A stretch of DNA of 64,000 bases, from the NCBI RefSeq assembly GCF_002067135.1, contig NZ_CP020105.1, positions 5,592,001 through 5,656,000 on the forward strand, given 5' to 3'. The notes below the pieces were generated by a model. It ran no database searches and had not been told where the DNA came from. It was given only the letters and a program-made list of their open reading frames with translations. This DNA is from Spirosoma rigui. Its GTDB lineage: Bacteria; Bacteroidota; Bacteroidia; Cytophagales; Spirosomataceae. Positions 39,644 to 51,505 of the stretch are shown here, one piece after another (position 1 is the stretch's first letter; each line of letters starts with the position of its first letter). The translations under genes were made by a program, and so were the position numbers.

Positions 39644-41209
39644 CTACTGCGGGACAACAGCCTTGATCGGCGATACCCGTACGTTGCTGAACTCGGCGCT
39701 GCCGCCTTCGGCGAAGAACTCGATGCTACCCGCCGGCTGGGTTGGGAAGATCAGGTCGGTGATGACACGTTCGCCCTCGTTGGCGAATACCTCCACCACC
39801 GATTTATCGACGAAGATCCGGAGTTTGATCACGCCGTTCTGCAACGCCAGTGGGGTTTCTTCCACCGAGGCAAACTTCTTGCTGAACGAGGTGTCGCCCG
39901 ATTTGCGCCGGTCGAACTGGAGCTTACCGTTCACGTACTGGATTACCGTTTCTTCATCGCCGTTTTTAGCCAGCTTCACCCCCACCGTTTTGGCGGTGCC
40001 GGGTTTAATATCGACCGTCAGTTCGTAGGTATTATCGATGGCTTTTTCCACTACGATGCTATTGCTGCTCACCTTCATCGAGGGTTTCGTGGTGTTCACC
40101 GTTCGCAGACCGGCCACTGTAGCGATGGGCTGTTGCATGAGCTGAAGCCCCGCTGCAGTCCGTTTCAGGCTGATCTGCCGGGGCAGCGACATGGCTCCTT
40201 TGAACGGCGTTGTGGGTAGTTCATTGCCGTAGGCCCAGTTGTTGAGCCAGCCCACCATCAGGGGACCCGTTTGTCCGGCGGGCAGGTCATTGAACTGAAT
40301 GGCCGCATAGTAGTCCTTCCCCCAATCCACGACGTTGCTCACCGCCGGCGCAATGGGCCTGGGATTGGCAGGATCGAGTTTAAAGTTCTTTCCGTCGAAA
40401 TCGCCCACGAAATACTGCATCCCTACGTAGTCCTTCTGCGGGTGGCCCGCCGAAATAAACAGCACCCATTTGGTCTTGCCGGGCTCGTTCTGGATAGGAA
40501 CGGGCATCAGCGCCGGGCACTCCCACACCTTCGTTGTGTCGCCCTGCTGCCCGAAATGACTCAGCAACGTCCAGTTCTTGAGGTCTTTCGACTCGAAGAA
40601 AGCCACCCGGTGTTCCGTTGCCTTTACGGCCGACATAACCCATTTTTTCTGAGGAGCGTACCAGAACACGTTCGGGTCGCGAAACTCCTTGCTGTTCAGG
40701 TCCAGCACCGGGTTCTTATCGTATTGTTTCCAGGTTCGGCCGTTGTCGCTGCTGGACGCTACGTTCTGGTACTGCGCCAACTGTTTATCACCCTGGGTGA
40801 CGTTACCGGTATAGATCGCCACCATGCAATCTTTGGTACCGGCGGGGCACAAGCCACTGGTATTGTCTTTGTCGATGACGGCGCTGCCCGAAAAAATAGA
40901 CGTCATTGTCTTTCCGTCGGGGTGGGTAAACTCAGGAATAGCCACCGGCAGATGTTCCCACCGCAGCAGGTCTTTGCTCACGGCATGTCCCCAGCTCATG
41001 TGGCCCCACACGTTGGCGAAGGGGTTATACTGGTAGAAAATATGGTACTCACCGTTGTGGTAGAGCAGCCCGTTCGGGTCGTTGGTCCAGTTTTTGGCCG
41101 GGCTGAAATGGTACTGAGGCCGGTAAAAATCTGGCTTTTGTGCCGCCTGTCCATTGGCGAAATGGCTCATCAGCGCCAGTAGGGTAATCGGAAGAAATGA
41201 TTGTCGCAT
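39644..41209 (-). CDS. Glycoside hydrolase family 32, fructan beta-fructosidase
   Basis: Exported enzyme of 521 residues with signal peptide MRQSFLPITLLALMSHFANG. The three GH32 catalytic residues are present: nucleophile D44 in NWTNDPNGLLYHNGEYHIFY, transition-state stabiliser D178 in EFRDPNVFWY, and acid/base E230 in VWECPALMPV. A five-blade propeller is followed by the usual C-terminal beta-sandwich (from about residue 370). It hydrolyses inulin, levan or sucrose to fructose; exo action is likely but linkage preference cannot be read from sequence. It is the last gene of the fructan operon, 102 bases after the SusD gene. Confidence 0.95.
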   Translation of the reverse strand: MRQSFLPITLLALMSHFANGQAAQKPDFYRPQYHFSPAKNWTNDPNGLLYHNGEYHIFYQYNPFANVWGHMSWGHAVSKDLLRWEHLPVAIPEFTHPDGKTMTSIFSGSAVIDKDNTSGLCPAGTKDCMVAIYTGNVTQGDKQLAQYQNVASSSDNGRTWKQYDKNPVLDLNSKEFRDPNVFWYAPQKKWVMSAVKATEHRVAFFESKDLKNWTLLSHFGQQGDTTKVWECPALMPVPIQNEPGKTKWVLFISAGHPQKDYVGMQYFVGDFDGKNFKLDPANPRPIAPAVSNVVDWGKDYYAAIQFNDLPAGQTGPLMVGWLNNWAYGNELPTTPFKGAMSLPRQISLKRTAAGLQLMQQPIATVAGLRTVNTTKPSMKVSSNSIVVEKAIDNTYELTVDIKPGTAKTVGVKLAKNGDEETVIQYVNGKLQFDRRKSGDTSFSKKFASVEETPLALQNGVIKLRIFVDKSVVEVFANEGERVITDLIFPTQPAGSIEFFAEGGSAEFSNVRVSPIKAVVPQ

Positions 41210-41311: not shown

Positions 41312-43030
41312 TTAAAAACCGGGGTTCTGCTTATAGAGTCCTTTGGTGAAATTGATCTCGCGCTGCGGAATGGGCAGGTACTCGTCCCGGCCGGCCGTAA
41401 ACTTCGCTCCGCTCAGGAACGACCGCCGGGTTTTCTCCTTCGCCAGATACGCGTTCAGCGTCGGCTCCGCAATGCCCCAGCGCACGAGGTCAAAGAAGCG
41501 CGGGCTCTCGGTGGCAAACTCCAGCCGGCGCTCGAACTGAAGGGCCTTGCGGGCATAGTCCTGCGTCCAGCTGGCCGCCGAATAGGGTCTGATGAGGTAG
41601 TTGGATGGATTGGACCCATCCGCCTTTTTGGTACGTCCGGTGCTGGCAGCCGCCCGGGCCCGGATGGCGTTGATCAGCGGTAGCGCCGACGCTTGCTGGC
41701 CCAGTTCAATGTATGCTTCAGCCTGAAAAAGCAGTACGTCGGCGTAACGGATGATGTCTATATTCTTCGACGTACCGATGAAGGGTCCCTGCTTTTTATA
41801 GGTCGAACTGGTGGCCAGCTGCTGTTCTTTCATCGACTGGAAGAAGCCGTACACGCCCGGATCGCGCACCCAGCTGTTGCTGAATGGCAGAGCTGCATTG
41901 TACTTGTACGGATGCCCGTCGATACCAATCGTGTGGTCGACACGCGGATCGACCGTGGCAGTTTTAAAGTCGATCACGCCGTCGTTGAAGGTATCGAATT
42001 TAGGCAGACCATTGGCGTCCGTACCGAAGGCATTGGCCAGGTTCTGGCTGGGTTGGTGGAAGCCACAGCACCCGTACTGGGGCGCTCCGTGCGGGTAATT
42101 CAGCCCCGTTTCGAAGTTAAGCCGGCCGACGGTTGTGCCGTCGTTGATCGAGTACTGCACCGAGAACACCGACTCCACGCCGTTGTCGAATTCGGGCAGG
42201 AAGTTCTCGGCAAAATCGGGTTGCAGCTTGTACCGGCCCGAACTGATCACCATCTCCGTCAGCTTGACCACTTCCTGTAGCTTCGTCTTGTTGATACCCG
42301 TAACCCGGTTGTTATCGTCCTGCTCGTAGGCCTGGTACAGCCGCAGCTTGGCCAGGTACGCAGCCGCCGACAGCTTGTTGGCCCGCCCTACCTGCGTCTG
42401 GGTGACGGGCAGGTTATCTACGGCATACTGGAAATCGGCTGCGATCTTATCCCACAGCTGATCGTTGGTCAATGCCCGGTTCGACACCGTCAGAATCTCG
42501 TCGTTCGACAGCGTCTCGTCGACATACGGAATATTTTTGAAAAGCATCTTGAGCATGAAATGCGCATGGGCCCGCAGAAACCGCAGTTCAGCCAGCCGGG
42601 TCTTCTTCAACGGAAAATCGGTTTCGGAGAGCGCGTCGATCGACCGCAGCCCCACGTTGGCCCGGGAAATAGACTTATAATAATTCTCCCAGGTATAGGG
42701 GTGATAAAAACCGCCCCCCTGCTGGGGCTGCGTCAGGTTATACTGCTCGTAGAAGTTGATATCTTCCAGATCGGCAACTCCACCGCCCCCCTTGTAGGCG
42801 TCGTCGGACCGGACGCTGCCGTAGACCCACATACTGGCAATGGGCCCAATCATTTCGCCGTTGCCAACCGATGCATAGGCGGCCGTTACGAGCGCATCGG
42901 CATTGCTGGCGCTTTTGATATTATCGGACGACAGGGTACCCTGGGGCTGGTACTCCAGGAAGTCGCTACAGGACGAGAACAGACCGGCACCCGCCACCAG
43001 TAGCGTCGAAACTAGAATGTTGGTTTTCAT
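41312..43030 (-). CDS. SusD/RagB fructan-binding lipoprotein
   Basis: Surface lipoprotein of 572 residues with lipobox GLFSSC (Cys21). SusD marks are LRFLRAHAHFMLKMLFKNIP, IIRYADVLLFQAEAYIELGQ, FERRLEFATESPRFFDLVRW and the terminal YLPIPQREINFTKGLYKQNP. It pairs with the SusC protein encoded 18 bases upstream. The context (GH32, fructokinase, HTCS) makes fructo-oligosaccharides the likely ligand. Confidence 0.95.
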   Translation of the reverse strand: MKTNILVSTLLVAGAGLFSSCSDFLEYQPQGTLSSDNIKSASNADALVTAAYASVGNGEMIGPIASMWVYGSVRSDDAYKGGGGVADLEDINFYEQYNLTQPQQGGGFYHPYTWENYYKSISRANVGLRSIDALSETDFPLKKTRLAELRFLRAHAHFMLKMLFKNIPYVDETLSNDEILTVSNRALTNDQLWDKIAADFQYAVDNLPVTQTQVGRANKLSAAAYLAKLRLYQAYEQDDNNRVTGINKTKLQEVVKLTEMVISSGRYKLQPDFAENFLPEFDNGVESVFSVQYSINDGTTVGRLNFETGLNYPHGAPQYGCCGFHQPSQNLANAFGTDANGLPKFDTFNDGVIDFKTATVDPRVDHTIGIDGHPYKYNAALPFSNSWVRDPGVYGFFQSMKEQQLATSSTYKKQGPFIGTSKNIDIIRYADVLLFQAEAYIELGQQASALPLINAIRARAAASTGRTKKADGSNPSNYLIRPYSAASWTQDYARKALQFERRLEFATESPRFFDLVRWGIAEPTLNAYLAKEKTRRSFLSGAKFTAGRDEYLPIPQREINFTKGLYKQNPGF

Positions 43031-43048: not shown

Positions 43049-46000
43049 TTAGAAAGACACGTTTAAACCGAATGTGAACGTGCGGGGTACGGGAATGGCG
43101 TTGACATCAACGCGCTCGGGATCAGGGCCCAGGAAGCTCTTGCTCTTCACCCAGAATACGTTCTCGACCATGCCATACAGGCGCAGGCTCGACAGGCCAA
43201 TGGCACCAATGGCGTCTTTGGGGAAGGTGTAGCCCAGCTGGATATTCCTGATTTTGAAGTACGAGGTGTTTACGTTGAAGTAGTCCGACGGACGTGTTTC
43301 GTTGTTGCCATCCGAGAGGGTCAGCGCCGGAATGCGGGAGCTTGTGTTCTGGGGCGTCCAGGCGTTGAACACACCCGGCCCTACGTTGTCGCGGCCCCGG
43401 ATGAAGTTGTTGTAGAATGTGTAGGAGTCAAACCCCGTCCGGCCCGCAATGCCGGAACCGAAGATGGACAGGTCGAAATTCTTGTAACCCAGGTCGAAGC
43501 GGGTACCGTATTCGAGGCCCGGCAGCGTCGTGCCGTAAAATTCCTGGTCCAGCGCGTCGATCCGGTTGTCGCCGTTGAGATCGCGGTACCGGATCCGGCC
43601 CGGAGCGGCACCCACCTGCTGGGCGTGGTTCGTCACCTCTTCCTGATTCTGGAAGATCCCATCCGTCCGGTAACCGAACAGGTCCAGCTGCGAATGCCCG
43701 ATGATGGTCGTCACGGCATTGCCCGCAAAAGCCGAGCGTACTTCTTCGGGTAACACCGTGATTCGGTCACGGAAGCGGGCAAAGTTCGTTGAGATGCTGT
43801 AGGTGAAGTCACCGATGGGCTTGCCGAAATACGCCAGCGACAGCTCGAAGCCCTTATTAGTCTTGGTGGCACCGTTTACGAATTTCAGCTGCCCCTCGCC
43901 CACCGCCGACGCGACGGGTGGTTTGATCAGGATATCCTTGGTTTGGCGCGTAAAGTAGTCGAACGAACCGGCTAAACTACCATTTAGAAAAGCGAAGTCC
44001 AGCCCGACGTTCAGCTCGTTGGTCGTTTCCCACTTGAGGGCGGTATTTTCACCCTGCGTCTGCACGAAGCCCGAGGGTAGCGTTCCCGTGCCGGCTCCGT
44101 TCAGGTCGTAGGCCGTACCTACGTTCCAATACTGATCGAAGAAGCCGTTGTGGCCGTTGGGCACCTGCGACGCCAGCGTACCGTAGCGCGGTTCGAACAG
44201 GCCAAAGCGGGCCAGATCGCCGATATCCTGGTTACCGATACGGCCCACCCCGGCGCGTAGCTTCAGGTTACTGATGGCCTTCACACCACTCATGAACGAC
44301 TCCTTGTCGATGCGCCAGCCCACCGAAGCAGCCGGAAAGAAACCGTAGCGGCTGTCGCTGCCGAAGCGCGACGAACCATCCCGGCGCAGGGTCAGCGCGG
44401 CCAGATACCGGTCGGAGAAGCCGTAGTCGATCCGGGCAAACTGCGACAGGAGCCGGCTGCCGGTGGAACTGCCGTTGCTGCTGGCGTTGCCGGATGCGGC
44501 ACTCAGCACGAAGAAATCTTCGGTCTGCACGGCGAAGTTCTCGCGGTACGACGTAACGTCGTCCAGGTTATCCCGGATGGCTTCGACACCCGCCAGCAGT
44601 TTGAACTGGTGATCGCCTATCCCGAAGTTATAGCGCAAGGTGTTGGTCCAGGCCAAACTCAGAAACTTGTTCGTGTTCAGCATCAGGCTGTTCAGTGAGC
44701 GGGCAATGAAGCCGTTCTGGAATGACTGTTCAATGTTTTTGTTGCTGTAGCCGGCATTGTCCATCCCCAGCGACGACCGGAAGATCAACCCGCGAATCGG
44801 CTCGATTTCGGTGAAGATGTTGCCGAACACGAACGTCCGGTTGATCTTGTCCCAGCGGTTGATGTACTGCATGAACAGCGGGTTATTCCGGTCGGAGTAG
44901 CCCGAGCCAACAGGACCGGCATAGTCGCCCGTTGCGGTATAGACGGGTATGGTCGGGGCCAGCGTAACGGCCAGGCCGGGCGTTGGCGCGCCACCGAGGT
45001 CGGTCGCTACGGGCGTTTCGCGGGAGGTAGTCATCTGCACATTTGCTCCGAACTTGAAGCGGCCGTCGAACTTACTGGTCAGGCCATTAATGCGGCCCGT
45101 CAGGCGGTTGTATCCCGTGTAGCGCAGCATACCCGAGTTGTTGAGGTAACTCACATTGACCAGCAGCGACGAGCTTTTGGTCCCGCCCGAAATGGTCAGG
45201 TCGTTATTGGTAATATAGCCCGTTTTGTAGACTTCGTTCTGCCAGTCGGTATCCCCAACAGGTACGTTCGGGTCGCCCCCCACAAATGGTTTCACGGTAA
45301 CCCCGTTCAGGACCGGGTTTTTAAAGTCTTTGTTCCAGTCGAACCCGTAGATATCGCCGTAGCCCGATGCCGGATCGACGCCATCATTGACCGATGCCTG
45401 CCACAGCGCCCGGCCCCGATCGACGGCGTTCAGCATCGTGAACCGCTGCGACTTCTCGGACTGCGCCGAAATGCTGGTGTTGAACTGCACGTTCAGCTTG
45501 CCGTCGGTATTGGCCCCGTTTTTTGTCGTCACGATGATGACGCCATTGGAAGCCCGCGAGCCATAGATCGACGCTGAAGATGCGTCTTTCAGAACTTGGA
45601 TGGACTGAATAGCCGTTGGGTTCAGGCTCTGGAACACCTGCGACCGCTTGGTAGGCATGCCGTCAATGATGTAGAGCGGATCGTTGTTGCCCAGCGTGTT
45701 CGCACCCCGAATCAGGATACGACTGGCATCACCGGAGGGCGTCCCCGACTTCTCAATGTAGAGGCCCGGCACCCGGCCCTGCAACGCCTGCATGGGGTTG
45801 CCCGAGCTGGTCACTTTGGCGGCTGCTACGTCAACAATGGCTACAGCCCCCGTCAGATCCTCCCGGCGGGACGTCGTATAGCCGAGTACGACGACCTCGG
45901 CCAGCTGCCCTCCTTCGACCAGCGAAATGGTCAGGTTGGTTTCGTTCCGGACGGGGATCACCTGACTCGTGTAGCCAATAAACGAGGCCGTTACGCTGGT

Positions 46001-46213
46001 GGCGCTGGCGGGCAGTGTCAGAGAGAACTTCCCTTTTGTGTCGGATACCGTACCCGTCAGGGTTCCGGTAATGACAATGTTGGCGCCAATGAGTGGTTCA
46101 CCGGTTTTGGCGTCCAGTACACTGCCCGAGACGGGGCGTTGTGCGAGTGCCAGTTGTGCGGTAACCAGCAGGACAGCTAGTGTAAGCAGGTAGTTTTTCA
46201 TATTCATAGACAT
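43049..46213 (-). CDS. SusC/RagA TonB-linked outer-membrane transporter (fructan)
   Basis: TonB-dependent channel of 1054 residues. The signal peptide is MKNYLLTLAVLLVTAQLALA (the annotated Met may be one of three close ATG codons). After it come the regulatory-like domain (VSGSVLDAKTGEPLIGANIV), the plug (LAEVVVLGYTTSRREDLTGA, RILIRGANTLGNNDPLYIID) and the barrel ending VPRTFTFGLNVSF. It imports fructan oligomers together with the SusD partner. It lies 44 bases after the fructokinase gene in the same operon. Confidence 0.96.
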   Translation of the reverse strand: MSMNMKNYLLTLAVLLVTAQLALAQRPVSGSVLDAKTGEPLIGANIVITGTLTGTVSDTKGKFSLTLPASATSVTASFIGYTSQVIPVRNETNLTISLVEGGQLAEVVVLGYTTSRREDLTGAVAIVDVAAAKVTSSGNPMQALQGRVPGLYIEKSGTPSGDASRILIRGANTLGNNDPLYIIDGMPTKRSQVFQSLNPTAIQSIQVLKDASSASIYGSRASNGVIIVTTKNGANTDGKLNVQFNTSISAQSEKSQRFTMLNAVDRGRALWQASVNDGVDPASGYGDIYGFDWNKDFKNPVLNGVTVKPFVGGDPNVPVGDTDWQNEVYKTGYITNNDLTISGGTKSSSLLVNVSYLNNSGMLRYTGYNRLTGRINGLTSKFDGRFKFGANVQMTTSRETPVATDLGGAPTPGLAVTLAPTIPVYTATGDYAGPVGSGYSDRNNPLFMQYINRWDKINRTFVFGNIFTEIEPIRGLIFRSSLGMDNAGYSNKNIEQSFQNGFIARSLNSLMLNTNKFLSLAWTNTLRYNFGIGDHQFKLLAGVEAIRDNLDDVTSYRENFAVQTEDFFVLSAASGNASSNGSSTGSRLLSQFARIDYGFSDRYLAALTLRRDGSSRFGSDSRYGFFPAASVGWRIDKESFMSGVKAISNLKLRAGVGRIGNQDIGDLARFGLFEPRYGTLASQVPNGHNGFFDQYWNVGTAYDLNGAGTGTLPSGFVQTQGENTALKWETTNELNVGLDFAFLNGSLAGSFDYFTRQTKDILIKPPVASAVGEGQLKFVNGATKTNKGFELSLAYFGKPIGDFTYSISTNFARFRDRITVLPEEVRSAFAGNAVTTIIGHSQLDLFGYRTDGIFQNQEEVTNHAQQVGAAPGRIRYRDLNGDNRIDALDQEFYGTTLPGLEYGTRFDLGYKNFDLSIFGSGIAGRTGFDSYTFYNNFIRGRDNVGPGVFNAWTPQNTSSRIPALTLSDGNNETRPSDYFNVNTSYFKIRNIQLGYTFPKDAIGAIGLSSLRLYGMVENVFWVKSKSFLGPDPERVDVNAIPVPRTFTFGLNVSF

Positions 46214-46257: not shown

Positions 46258-47154
46258 CTAGACGGGCAGCGCTGGCAGCAGGATCGTTGTCCGGATCGTT
46301 TCTTCGGTGAAGGCAGGGGTGGCCCCCCGCTGGGTCGCTACGTAAGCACCCGTAGCGCAGGCAAATTCAAGGGTCTTCTGCGCCGGTTCGTTCTGCACGG
46401 TTTTGTAGAGGAACCCCGCCAGGAAGGCATCGCCACTGCCGATGGTATCGGCCACCTCAACGGGAAAACCCACCTGGCTGTACAGACCACTTTCGTCCAG
46501 CAGTACGGCACCGTGCTCACCCAGGGTCACACACAATACGTCGAGCGCATAGCGGGCGCGCAGCTGGTGCATGGCCGCGTGCAGGTCCGACTCTTCGCCG
46601 TACCAGGCTGATAGCTCGATCAACTCATGTTCGTTCAGTTTGGCGATGTCGGCACGGTGCAGGAGTTCTTCCACCAGCCCGCGTTCGTAATGCGGGGCGC
46701 GGAGGTTTACGTCGAATACCTTACGCTGCGCTACGTCCAGCAGCGCCAGCAGGGTTTCGTGGGTTTGGGGACTGCGGGCAGCCAGGCTGCCGTAGACGAA
46801 AAAATCGCTGTTCCGAACAGCTTCGGTCAGGTTGGGTGCCTGCTGGATGTAGTCCCAGGCTACGGGCTGGACGATCTTGTAGGTTACCTCATTGGCATCG
46901 GAGATATTGGCTTTGGCAACGCCCGTCAGATGGGTTTGCCCGATCTGAATGAGTTCGAGCGGGAGGCCTTTTTGGGCAATAAAATCCAGCAGTTCGGTAC
47001 CCAGCTCGTCGCTGCCGACGCGGCTGATCATCTGGGCGTTGATGCCGAAGTTGCGGAGATCGGCGGCCACGTTCATGGGGGCACCGCCGGGTTGTTTGCT
47101 GGTGGGTAATACGTCCCAGAGGGTTTCGCCGAAGCAGGTGATGGTTGTGTTCAT
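46258..47154 (-). CDS. PfkB family fructokinase
   Basis: Cytoplasmic ribokinase-family sugar kinase of 298 residues. The N-terminal substrate motif is KQPGGAPMNVAADLRNFGIN, and the C-terminal PfkB signature with catalytic Asp is VADTIGSGDAFLAGFLYKTV. FGETLWDVLPT at the start is typical of bacterial fructokinases. It phosphorylates the fructose brought in by the adjacent MFS porter, feeding glycolysis. It begins 14 bases after the porter stop, so the two are coexpressed. Confidence 0.93.
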   Translation of the reverse strand: MNTTITCFGETLWDVLPTSKQPGGAPMNVAADLRNFGINAQMISRVGSDELGTELLDFIAQKGLPLELIQIGQTHLTGVAKANISDANEVTYKIVQPVAWDYIQQAPNLTEAVRNSDFFVYGSLAARSPQTHETLLALLDVAQRKVFDVNLRAPHYERGLVEELLHRADIAKLNEHELIELSAWYGEESDLHAAMHQLRARYALDVLCVTLGEHGAVLLDESGLYSQVGFPVEVADTIGSGDAFLAGFLYKTVQNEPAQKTLEFACATGAYVATQRGATPAFTEETIRTTILLPALPV

Positions 47155-48494: not shown

Positions 48495-48533
48495 GGTTAA
48501 CGCATGAACTGGATTGTCTGGCAGTTCATGAGT

Positions 48534-48541
48534 CAAACCTA
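48534..48541 (-). promoter_or_regulatory. TAnnTTTG promoter box of the fructan operon
   Basis: On the minus strand TAGGTTTG is an exact -7 match, about 40 bases before the porter ATG. No -33 TTTG is present at the right distance, as expected for a promoter that needs an activator. A 21-bp-period direct repeat begins where the -33 element should be. Confidence 0.65.
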
Positions 48542-48568
48542 GCCGATCAGGGTGAAGACAGGCTTTTT

Positions 48569-48597
48569 GAAATCGCTCAAATAAATACAGAAATCGC
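48569..48597. promoter_or_regulatory. Candidate HTCS operator: 8-bp direct repeat, 21-bp period
   Basis: GAAATCGC occurs at 48569-48576 and again, exactly, at 48590-48597. The 21-bp spacing puts both half-sites on one face of DNA, as in AraC-family sites. The proximal copy starts 28 bases upstream of the -7 box, the position of a class II activator. The HTCS encoded next door has an AraC-type DNA-binding domain. Confidence 0.65.
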
Positions 48598-48611
48598 CCC
48601 GCAAATAATTA

Positions 48612-48624
48612 ACTGACAGTCAGT
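48612..48624. promoter_or_regulatory. Small palindrome upstream of the fructan operon
   Basis: ACTGAC-A-GTCAGT is a perfect odd-length palindrome with 6-bp arms. It lies 15 bases beyond the distal GAAATCGC copy. It could be a second regulator site; nothing shows which. Confidence 0.3.
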
Positions 48625-48653
48625 ATAGTTACCCAATGATCAACCGTCCTGAC

Positions 48654-48687
48654 TTTCGATTTTGATACGCTGGATTTCGGTTTTGAT
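48654..48687. promoter_or_regulatory. Second direct repeat with 21-bp period
   Basis: TTTCGATTTTGAT (48654-48666) and TTTCGGTTTTGAT (48675-48687) match at 12 of 13 positions and start 21 bp apart. The pair lies between the HTCS stop codon and the proximal operator candidate, about 115-150 bases upstream of the porter promoter. Confidence 0.4.
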
Positions 48688-48712
48688 TCAGTGGGTTACG
48701 GACCCGTCGGGT

Positions 48713-51505
48713 CTAGGCGCTCACCGGCGATTTGCGGTATTCGGAGGGGGTCCGTTTGGTATGCTGTTTGAAGAAGGTCGTAAAGTAAGCCGGGGAGTTA
48801 AATCCGGTCTCTTCAGCGATCTCGGCGATGGGTTTATTGGTTTCGCGCAGCAGGTACTTCGCCTTTTTCAACCGAATTTCGGTGAGGTAATCCATCACGT
48901 TCATGTCCAGCAGGGCCTGCACTTTTCGGTAGAGCTGCACCCGCGAGAGGCCCATCTCGCGACTCAGCATTTCGACCCCGAACGACGGGTCGCCAAGGTG
49001 CCGTTCAATGAGCGCCGTCAGCTCGTTGAGAAACTTCTTCTCGTTCCGGTTGCCCAGCTGCGGCAGCAGATCCGACGCAAAACGCTGCTGGAGTTTCTGG
49101 CGGTTGGCCAGTGTGGTACGCAGTGTTTCCAGCAGGTAGGTCGTGTTGAAGGGTTTGGTAATATAAGCGTCGGCCCCGGCGCGGGCACCTTCGATACGTT
49201 GCTCCATCTGCCCTTTGGCGGTGAGCAGAATGACGGGAATGTGCGACGTGCGAAGGTCGGCTTTGATGCGCTGGGTCAGCTGCAAACCGTCGATCGAGCC
49301 GGGCAGCATAATGTCGCTGATGACCAGATCAGGAATCGTTTCGAGGGCCCGCTCCCAACCCTGCTCGGCGTCTTTTTCGGCAATGATGTCAAACTCGGTA
49401 CCCAGCCGATTGGTCAGGAACGTACGTAGGTCGTCGTTATCTTCAATCACCAGCAGCGTACCTACCTGTTTGCCGGGTTGCGACAACACCGGCAGCAACT
49501 CCTCTTCGTCGTCCGTTTCAACCAGCGTCCGGTGGCGGGTGGCGGTGTTCACCCGCTCGCTCTCGTCCAGGTGCGCGCAACCCAGCGGCAGCAGGATCGT
49601 GAACGTAGTGCCCCGCCCCTGCTGCGATGCTACGTCGATGGTGCCGCGGTGCAGTTCGATAAACTCCATCGACAGGGCCAGCCCCAGCCCTTTAGCCAGG
49701 TTATAGGGCTGCGTACCGCTAAAAAACAGATCGAAGGCATGGTCTTTTTCTTCGGGCGTCATGCCTTCGCCGTTGTCTTCGACCTGAATCCGGACCTGGC
49801 TGCCGTCGCTGTCGAGTCGAACGTGGATAAAGCCACCTTTGGGCGTGTATTTGAAGGCGTTCGACAACAGATTGAACAGCACTTTATCCAGCTTCTCGGC
49901 GTCGAACCAGGTCAGTTGGGCCGACTGGGTGGTAAGCAACTGGAGGTCGATCCGCTTTTTCTCGGCCTTCCGCTGGAAGTCGGAAACGATATCGCGCACA
50001 AATGCGACCAAGTCCTGTTCCGACGCCCGCAGCCGCAGCTTTCCGGCATCGGTCTTGCGCAGGTCCAGCATCTGGTCGACCAGGCGCAGGAGCCGGTAGG
50101 CGTTCTTCTGCACCAGCAGCAGGCTGCTTTTCAGGTCGTGGGGCGCTACCGTTCGCTTGGCCAGCAGATCCTCGGTAGGCGTCAGGATCAGGCTGAGGGG
50201 CGTGTTGAACTCGTGGGAGATGTAGGAGTAAAACCGCAGTTTCTCTTCCGTCGCCAGCCGGGCTTGCTGCGACACCACTTCGATCTGGTTCTTCTGGGTC
50301 AGAATCTCTTCGTTCTGCTGTTCCAGCGTATGGTAGGCCGCCTGCTTGGACCGAAACAGGTAGAGCGCCCAGACACCGAGCAGAATAGCCACGATCAAAC
50401 TGCCCAGCGTAATGTACAGGGTTGTCTTTTGCGACGTATAGGTTTGGTTGAGGTCGCTGATCTGCCGGATCTGCCGTTCGATGTCGCTTTGCTGCTCAAT
50501 GACTTTCTCATTCTGGAGTTTCATGATCCGCACGTTCGTCGAATCGATCAGCGTGATGGGCAGCCGGTTCTCGCGTTTGAAAGGCTGCTTGTTCAGAATG
50601 GCGAGAGCTGTCCGGATGGCTTCCTTACCGCCCGTTGGGTACAGCACTGTAGCATCCAGAATGCGCTGGTCCACGAGTTCGATACCTTCGTTTTTACCCG
50701 GCAGACCATCGACACCGATGATCTTGACCTGATTGCCCATTCCCAGTTGCTGGCATACGCGGTGAGCTTTCAGTGCGGTACGGTCGTTCTGGGCAAAGAT
50801 GAGCTGAATGGCCGGTGTTCCCCGTAACAGCTTCGTCAGTGCGGTGGCAAACGAGCGTTTGTCCCAATCACCGTCCAGCTTCCGGACAAGCCGGATGCCG
50901 GGATGCGGCCGGAGGGCTTCCATAAAGCCGCGGTGCCGGTCCATGTCGGCCGACGAACCCGGCGACTCCCCAATCTCGACGACGTTCCCCGCGCCTTTGA
51001 GCAGGGCGTGGGCGTAGATTCCCGCCGTGCGACCCACCTCCACGTTGTCGGCACCTACGTAGGCCGTGTACTGGTCGGACGCGGTGCGCCGGTCGACCAC
51101 AATAACCGGAATACCCTGCTGGTACGCTTTTTCGACGACGGGCGTAATGGGCTGGGCAGCATTGGGCGAGACAATCAGCAGGTCGACCTGCTGATCGATC
51201 AGTTCCTGAATCTGCCGAACCTGCTGATCACTACGGCCACCGGCATCTTTGACGATGAATTCGACTTCGGGCGTAAACGACAACTCGCGGTTCATGCTCT
51301 CCTGCATGGTTTTGCGCCAGTTGTCGGTTTGCGTCCGCTGCGAGAAGCCAATCCGAAATGCCTTCTTCTGCGTCGAGAGCTGGCAACCGCCCACCAGAAG
51401 CCACAGTCCGATCAGCCCAAGCAGCCAGATGGCCCCGGACGGAAGAGCCCATGCGCTCAGTCGGTAAGCAGGTAGCGGGGCAGACCGGTTGGGTGGCTGG
51501 TTCAT
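48713..51505 (-). CDS. Hybrid two-component sensor/regulator (HTCS), fructan locus
   Basis: Single-protein signalling system of 930 residues. After an N-terminal hydrophobic segment, residues about 48-340 form a LacI-type periplasmic sugar-binding domain (FRIGFSQRTQTDNWRKTMQE, IVSPNAAQPITPVVEKAYQQ, VIVVDRRTASDQYTAYVGAD). Then come a membrane helix (ITLGSLIVAILLGVWALYLF), HisKA with SYISHEFNTPLSLI, HATPase_c (VLFNLLSNAFKYTPKGGFIH), a receiver with DLVISDIMLPG, and an AraC-type domain (IAEIAEETGFNSPAYFTTFF). The architecture is that of the Bacteroides fructose sensor BT1754, so fructose is the likely ligand. The N-terminal segment ends LLVGGC (Cys41), a possible lipobox. It lies 219 bases upstream of the porter gene on the same strand. 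Confidence 0.95.
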   Translation of the reverse strand: MNQPPNRSAPLPAYRLSAWALPSGAIWLLGLIGLWLLVGGCQLSTQKKAFRIGFSQRTQTDNWRKTMQESMNRELSFTPEVEFIVKDAGGRSDQQVRQIQELIDQQVDLLIVSPNAAQPITPVVEKAYQQGIPVIVVDRRTASDQYTAYVGADNVEVGRTAGIYAHALLKGAGNVVEIGESPGSSADMDRHRGFMEALRPHPGIRLVRKLDGDWDKRSFATALTKLLRGTPAIQLIFAQNDRTALKAHRVCQQLGMGNQVKIIGVDGLPGKNEGIELVDQRILDATVLYPTGGKEAIRTALAILNKQPFKRENRLPITLIDSTNVRIMKLQNEKVIEQQSDIERQIRQISDLNQTYTSQKTTLYITLGSLIVAILLGVWALYLFRSKQAAYHTLEQQNEEILTQKNQIEVVSQQARLATEEKLRFYSYISHEFNTPLSLILTPTEDLLAKRTVAPHDLKSSLLLVQKNAYRLLRLVDQMLDLRKTDAGKLRLRASEQDLVAFVRDIVSDFQRKAEKKRIDLQLLTTQSAQLTWFDAEKLDKVLFNLLSNAFKYTPKGGFIHVRLDSDGSQVRIQVEDNGEGMTPEEKDHAFDLFFSGTQPYNLAKGLGLALSMEFIELHRGTIDVASQQGRGTTFTILLPLGCAHLDESERVNTATRHRTLVETDDEEELLPVLSQPGKQVGTLLVIEDNDDLRTFLTNRLGTEFDIIAEKDAEQGWERALETIPDLVISDIMLPGSIDGLQLTQRIKADLRTSHIPVILLTAKGQMEQRIEGARAGADAYITKPFNTTYLLETLRTTLANRQKLQQRFASDLLPQLGNRNEKKFLNELTALIERHLGDPSFGVEMLSREMGLSRVQLYRKVQALLDMNVMDYLTEIRLKKAKYLLRETNKPIAEIAEETGFNSPAYFTTFFKQHTKRTPSEYRKSPVSA

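Follow-up and report, generated by a model that had tools for sequence, protein, structure and literature searches.

Direct repeats are a recurring prediction for HTCS operators in Bacteroides; repeats averaging 21 bp are predicted for 16 HTCSs of B. thetaiotaomicron, with a 16+5+16 arrangement for HTCS_Man, and the predicted fructose HTCS regulon includes an inner-membrane transporter and a kinase (PMC3878776). In the fructan PUL of B. thetaiotaomicron, the ChIP signal of the regulator BT1754 is strongest over the 3' end of the BT1754 gene itself (PMC3404733), and the 300 bp before BT1763 give BT1754-dependent induction (PMC9845299). Parts of HTCS regulators also gel-shift two other PUL promoters (PMC11253607). 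The locus described here, situated in the window (the whole 64-kb stretch of DNA that was analysed), is like the operators of HTCS_Man, HTCS_Fru, and others in its direct half-sites, its period of about 21, and its position upstream of a PUL operon (PMC3878776). With BT1754 it shares the sensor type, and its distal pair of half-sites (D) corresponds in place to that strongest ChIP signal, at the HTCS gene's 3' end (PMC3404733). However, compared with the Bacteroides operators, the window contains two pairs, D and a proximal pair (P), with a palindrome (C) between them and a stepwise spacing. In the case of BT1754, the site is not resolved to the base, whereas D here is predicted to drive the porter operon, whose first gene lies downstream of the HTCS.

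Two further types of promoter bear comparison. The IHF-assisted promoters of Proteobacteria place an IHF-type consensus between the promoter and an activator site farther upstream. A candidate site of this kind lies between D and the promoter in the window, but it is symmetric, and it is weak in the window itself; to our knowledge, IHF proper is not established in the phylum of the window. AraC at araI1-I2 and XylR utilize direct half-sites separated by about two turns, with the proximal half-site beside the -35/-33 region. The araI1-I2 layout resembles the position of P, to which the window adds an upstream operator. Unlike AraC and XylR, the regulator in the window is membrane-bound, the promoter is of another type, and the extra upstream pair is present without the long araO2 distance. 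XylR-like direct repeats are also mentioned in PMC12125979.

The genome of the window is a single contig of 5.83 Mb, and the genes of the locus follow one another on the minus strand, as assigned by Pfam, in the order HTCS, sugar porter, PfkB kinase, SusC, SusD, and GH32 hydrolase:

48713..51505, minus strand: HTCS gene, 930 aa, BT1754 type (sensor type, COG1879, according to PMC3878776)
47169..48494, minus strand: sugar porter (MFS), first gene of the probable operon
46258..47154, minus strand: PfkB kinase, fructokinase-like
43049..46213, minus strand: SusC-like TonB-dependent receptor
41312..43030, minus strand: SusD-like protein
39644..41209, minus strand: GH32 fructan hydrolase

The HTCS contains in one chain a Peripla_BP_4 sensor, HisKA, HATPase_c, Response_reg, and an AraC-type HTH (Pfam), which is the BT1754-type combination of a sugar-binding-protein sensor, kinase, receiver, and AraC HTH and agrees with the AraC-type domain previously ascribed to this protein. 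Judged from its sensor type and its PfkB kinase and GH32 neighbours, the HTCS is probably a fructose binder. The porter start (ATG 48494) was picked via homologues, the ORF list having an upstream TTG instead. Among 150 family genomes, 94 contain an HTCS match at E<=1e-100, weaker matches of about 38% identity being other HTCSs, and 79 contain a porter match at E<=1e-170; the porter upstream regions compared number 70, collected in two batches of 30 and 40. The closest named relative by HTCS is Spirosoma utsteinense (88%), in a comparison possibly not covering the window's own genome. Many Dyadobacter HTCS matches have one stop codon within the matched span, which may only be the natural gene end.

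The putative regulatory elements lie between the HTCS gene and the porter:

48675..48690, minus strand: D1, distal half-site TGAATCAAAACCGAAA (period-21 pair matrix and genome profile)
48654..48669, minus strand: D2, distal half-site CGTATCAAAATCGAAA, 21 bp from D1 (period-21 pair matrix and genome profile)
48606..48623, minus strand: C, palindrome CTGACTGTCAG (48623-48613) with a one-mismatch IHF match TGTCAGTTAATTA (48618-48606) (family consensus and IHF scan)
48585..48600, minus strand: P1, proximal half-site GGGGCGATTTCTGTAT, containing the 48590 copy of the repeat (register relative to the box)
48564..48579, minus strand: P2, proximal half-site TGAGCGATTTCAAAAA, containing the 48569 copy of the repeat (register relative to the box)
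48541-48534, minus strand: -7 box TAGGTTTG, exact TAnnTTTG (sequence; consensus as quoted in PMC7366714)
48503..48530, minus strand: inverted repeat CATGAACTG-N10-CAGTTCATG at the probable transcript 5' end (leader comparison)

The earlier note had singled out an 8-mer repeat beside a promoter box, and its observations are exact: GAAATCGC occurs twice on the plus strand (48569-48576 and 48590-48597) with a period of 21, beginning 28 bases from a box that matches the sigma-ABfr consensus TAnnTTTG at -7. The absence of a -33 element is likewise confirmed by eye, no TTTG being visible near -33; according to PMC7366714, no -33 TTTG was identified in Flavobacterium johnsoniae either. When the 220-bp stretch upstream of the porter is shuffled 4000 times with dinucleotides preserved, some 8-mer recurs at a distance of exactly 21 bp in 0.175% of the shuffles, at 19-23 bp in 0.875%, and at 9-60 bp in 8.6%. 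Across the 64-kb window, 8-mers are repeated at 21 bp from 9 start positions in 5 separate places; the GAAATCGC repeat alone is therefore weak evidence, conservation must decide, and the promoter position is what counts. The exact pair is found in only one of the 70 porter upstream regions, while the region of S. utsteinense retains 7 of the 8 letters as a CGATTTC pair, and GAAATCGC as a conserved recognition sequence is thus rejected. What survives of the proposal is the direct half-sites with a period of 21 at a class II position upstream of the -7 box: in the related loci the letters are lost, but the site is kept in 53 of the 54 box-bearing loci. The view that HTCS target sites can seldom be recognised by eye calls for a qualification, since predicted motifs for 16 B. 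thetaiotaomicron HTCSs date from 2013 (PMC3878776). The earlier interpretation is right in kind and incomplete: it overlooks D, the palindrome that separates D from P, and the constancy of the spacing, and the functional region extends beyond the span then considered, to about 48503-48690. The only other direct pair of GCGATTTC in the genome (spacers 11-15 scanned) lies at 3016873-3016902, with a spacer of 14.

D is a direct repeat of two 16-bp sites with a period of 21 (48690-48654), located at the 3' end of the HTCS gene (48713) on the side of the porter. A period-21 pair was fitted to 62 porter regions, leaving out the window and seven of the 70 (five from genomes with no HTCS, the second copy of a porter, and a porter situated 9 kb from its HTCS), and gives the half-site TGTAACAAAATTGAAA. 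With this matrix, D in the window scores 38.3 bits versus 3.9 for the next place in 64 kb; a 50-site matrix from outside the Spirosoma list, which takes in a number of P pairs as well as the divergent Spirosoma loci L074 and L081, gives 36.4 for D and -1.1 for the next place. A score of at least 20 is reached by 60 of the 63 porter regions that do not serve as controls, and the other three contain a period-20 pair (19.7, 17.5, and 12.3), the relatives' scores being partly circular and all counts inflated by relatedness. The porters of genomes with no HTCS, mostly more distant (70-80% identity), do not reach 20 in any of the five cases (maximum 1.0); the second porter copy scores -5.7, the porter 9 kb from its HTCS (L093) scores 11.2 without a clear D, and the top among 1000 mononucleotide shuffles used as controls is 11.95.

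In addition, a 37-position D profile, built on 35 of 48 D pairs, finds a single match in the 5.83-Mb genome (E 6.5e-7), the next having an E of 0.65. Within the genus, 30 of 36 genomes contain a match and 32 contain the HTCS; D is present before the regulated operon in 30 of the 32 HTCS-bearing genomes versus none of the four without HTCS, three of which are incomplete (71-84%). In the two HTCS-bearing exceptions (G690 and G698), the profile search finds no D at E<=0.05. Simultaneously, D accompanies the porter where the HTCS lies kilobases off or on another contig (L103, L104, L117, and L122), and accompanies the kinase in one locus where the porter is missing (L116). Among 14 class-level HTCS loci, a pair scoring at least 21 is found in seven and none in the other seven. 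Both D and P form the direct repeat of about 21 bp that is predicted for HTCS operators (PMC3878776), and D is predicted to be the main, stronger operator of the adjoining HTCS, situated 90 bases upstream of P. A third half-site, TGTATCAAATTTTAAA, occurs about 46 bp after D1 in some Dyadobacter loci, such as L066, L070, and L072.

Between D and P, the family consensus is YAANNNNYTGATWATCARNNNNTTR, derived from 97 of 105 loci, the eight left out being those whose best pair is P or lies elsewhere. The best match to the C core starts 65-67 or 75-78 after D in 85 of the 97 loci, the outer TAA and TTA being unused in choosing it, and both halves of C agree with the IHF consensus TAAnnnnTTGATW / WATCAAnnnnTTR (PMC10380432). 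An exact WATCARNNNNTTR lies between D and P in 61 of the 97 loci versus 1.5% of shuffles, with 0 of 96 in a control stretch, and chance is thereby rejected for the locus set; with one mismatch allowed, 90 of 97 loci match versus 27% of shuffles. C in the window has one mismatch to WATCARNNNNTTR, and its left TAA is displaced by one base; S. utsteinense matches exactly. Meanwhile, the genome of the window contains one PF00216 match at E<=0.001, a protein whose best score, 61 bits, is to IHF beta but falls short of the curated cut-off. Since this gene is single, its product would form a homodimer, suited to a symmetric site.

A possible, though rather unlikely, alternative is that C is an ordinary site for a palindrome-binding regulator, such as a Crp-like protein, and that the spacing reflects separate polymerase contacts. 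C is indeed palindromic, and a palindromic Crp-like motif occurs at several Bacteroides sugar promoters (PMC3878776). However, the Bacteroides Crp motif, wwwTATGTTnTAnAACATAwww, is unlike C (PMC3878776), which led to the rejection of a Crp-like site of that kind; the flanks of C supply both halves of the IHF consensus (PMC10380432), and the one PF00216 protein described above also speaks against this alternative. Genome-wide, the palindrome occurs with up to two mismatches at 57 places versus 11 for the reversed pattern, and 11 of 15 places fetched have no overlapping ORF of at least 100 aa. The neighbours of the examined places are mixed and reveal no PUL-wide rule for the palindrome; the IHF-like palindrome may be a general bending site of the group.

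P lies closer to the promoter, and both GAAATCGC copies correspond to positions 4-11 of its half-sites P1 and P2. The box-anchored set comprises the 54 of 70 porter regions, from 14 genera, that could be assigned to a genus and carry a box within range. Pairs were sought 41-75 bp ahead of the box, and in 53 of these regions the best one begins at a distance of 57-59 bp from it. P in the window (48600-48564) is the best pair register between -170 and -60, yet its score is low at -3.8, a value equalled or bettered at 36 of 127,928 places. Three kinds of observation bear on its nature besides this fixed register. With the D matrix, P pairs in other genera reach 33.7 bits. A 29-base block across P1 and P2 is identical in S. 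utsteinense with the flanking spacers diverged, D and the stretch from the box to the leader being likewise kept between the two. Furthermore, exact period-21 repeats with different letters occupy the P region of five other loci (L047, L051, L094, L095, and L097). On these grounds, P most likely represents a weak operator of the HTCS that has retained its geometry through changes in its letters.

It is unlikely that D is the only HTCS operator, with the GAAATCGC repeat arising by chance and the proximal stretch serving as a core-promoter or polymerase contact element. The single occurrence of the exact pair among 70 regions would fit this explanation, as would the score of -3.8 for P in the window against 38 for D, and the TATTTGAAC-like letters near P2, which are better conserved than P1. 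Against it, the D matrix gives 20-34 bits for P pairs at the same place in other genera, the 29 identical bases in S. utsteinense span both half-sites between diverged spacers, and other lineages possess period-21 repeats of their own. That a second regulator binds P while the HTCS binds D is very improbable: P2 has its own signature, TTTGAACGAAT, unlike D at several positions, but P shares with D the period, the orientation, and, in several genera, the half-site matrix, and no other regulator gene adjoins the porter within the window (Pfam).

The spacing of these elements changes in steps. In the 54 box-anchored loci, the distance from D to the box is 146-150 in 34, 156-160 in 8, and 170-172 in 12, with nothing between. 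P starts 89-91, 99-102, or 110-112 after D in 38 of 39 loci, which are those of the 105 with a P pair of at least 10 bits. The D-C distance takes the values 66 and 77, and that from C to P takes 23 and 34, each changing by about one whole turn. All these steps are close to a turn of DNA, although shared descent means that fewer of them are independent. For Dyadobacter, P picks made without the box as anchor were set aside as unreliable, some best picks lying at 89-91 instead of 112, and the spacing claim therefore rests on the box-anchored table. Two cases combine features of different lineages: S. endophyticum (L129 and L074) has a Dyadobacter-like HTCS (53%) with a spacing of 170 bp, and a Flavobacterium sp. 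SUN052 contig (L128) has a Spirosoma-like HTCS (60%) with a spacing of 148 bp. These cases suggest that the locus was transferred together with its promoter.

Downstream of the box, the leader carries the inverted repeat listed above. Among 13 Spirosoma leaders, three of which align poorly, 7 of 9 pairs have changed on both sides, and 82.6% of cells are paired versus at most 41.1% when the alignment is slid. Among nine relatives outside this set, the inverted repeat is absent from three. It may form a hairpin at the 5' end of the mRNA or act as another palindromic operator.

The computations show D, its single occurrence, and its association with the presence of the HTCS, together with the constant position of P, the family palindrome, and the stepwise spacing; HTCS binding, activation, bending, and looping are what we infer. 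Taken together, the stretch is probably the promoter of a fructan operon, with the GAAATCGC repeat falling within the proximal of two direct-repeat operators for the adjoining fructose-sensing HTCS, and is best read, from its DNA and that of its relatives, as a phased, probably bent, two-operator activator promoter. With the -7 box placing the transcription start near 48527, P1 would extend from -73 to -58, P2 from -52 to -37, C would lie near -91, and D would extend from -163 to -127. Fructose would activate the membrane-bound HTCS, whose AraC-type domains would bind D as a dimer (strongly, over 16+5+16 bp) and P weakly, beside the -7 box. Given the position of P2 at about -52 to -37, the monomer there could contact RNA polymerase and substitute for the missing -33 element. 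Simultaneously, an IHF/HU-family protein that bends the DNA at C would carry the D-bound HTCS to P and the polymerase, likely aiding polymerase recruitment; such bending would require D, C, and P to keep their DNA faces.

This type of HTCS operator is already known, and the new details are the two-operator layout, the IHF-like palindrome, and the three narrow spacings. In the literature searched, outside which most subscription journals lie, none of the papers listed joins an HTCS with looping or helical phasing, or integration host factor with HTCS, Bacteroides, and polysaccharide utilization, and no layout of two operators around a central palindrome, spaced in steps, was found. The way in which a membrane-bound HTCS reaches its DNA, and the influence of the bound regions on regulation, are named as future topics in PMC3404733. 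In this locus, the operator, the probable bending site, and the promoter are placed to the base, and natural variants of the spacing occur in steps of about one turn; the model can therefore be tested with few promoter constructs. The D profile is, in addition, a means to find fructan HTCS targets outside Bacteroides. Tentatively, and with somewhat less than even confidence, the fructan HTCS promoters of several Bacteroidota families could be phased switches, in which HTCS dimers at D and P are joined via a symmetric site, lying between D and P and bent by an IHF-like homodimer; if so, a membrane-bound activator would act through a DNA loop.
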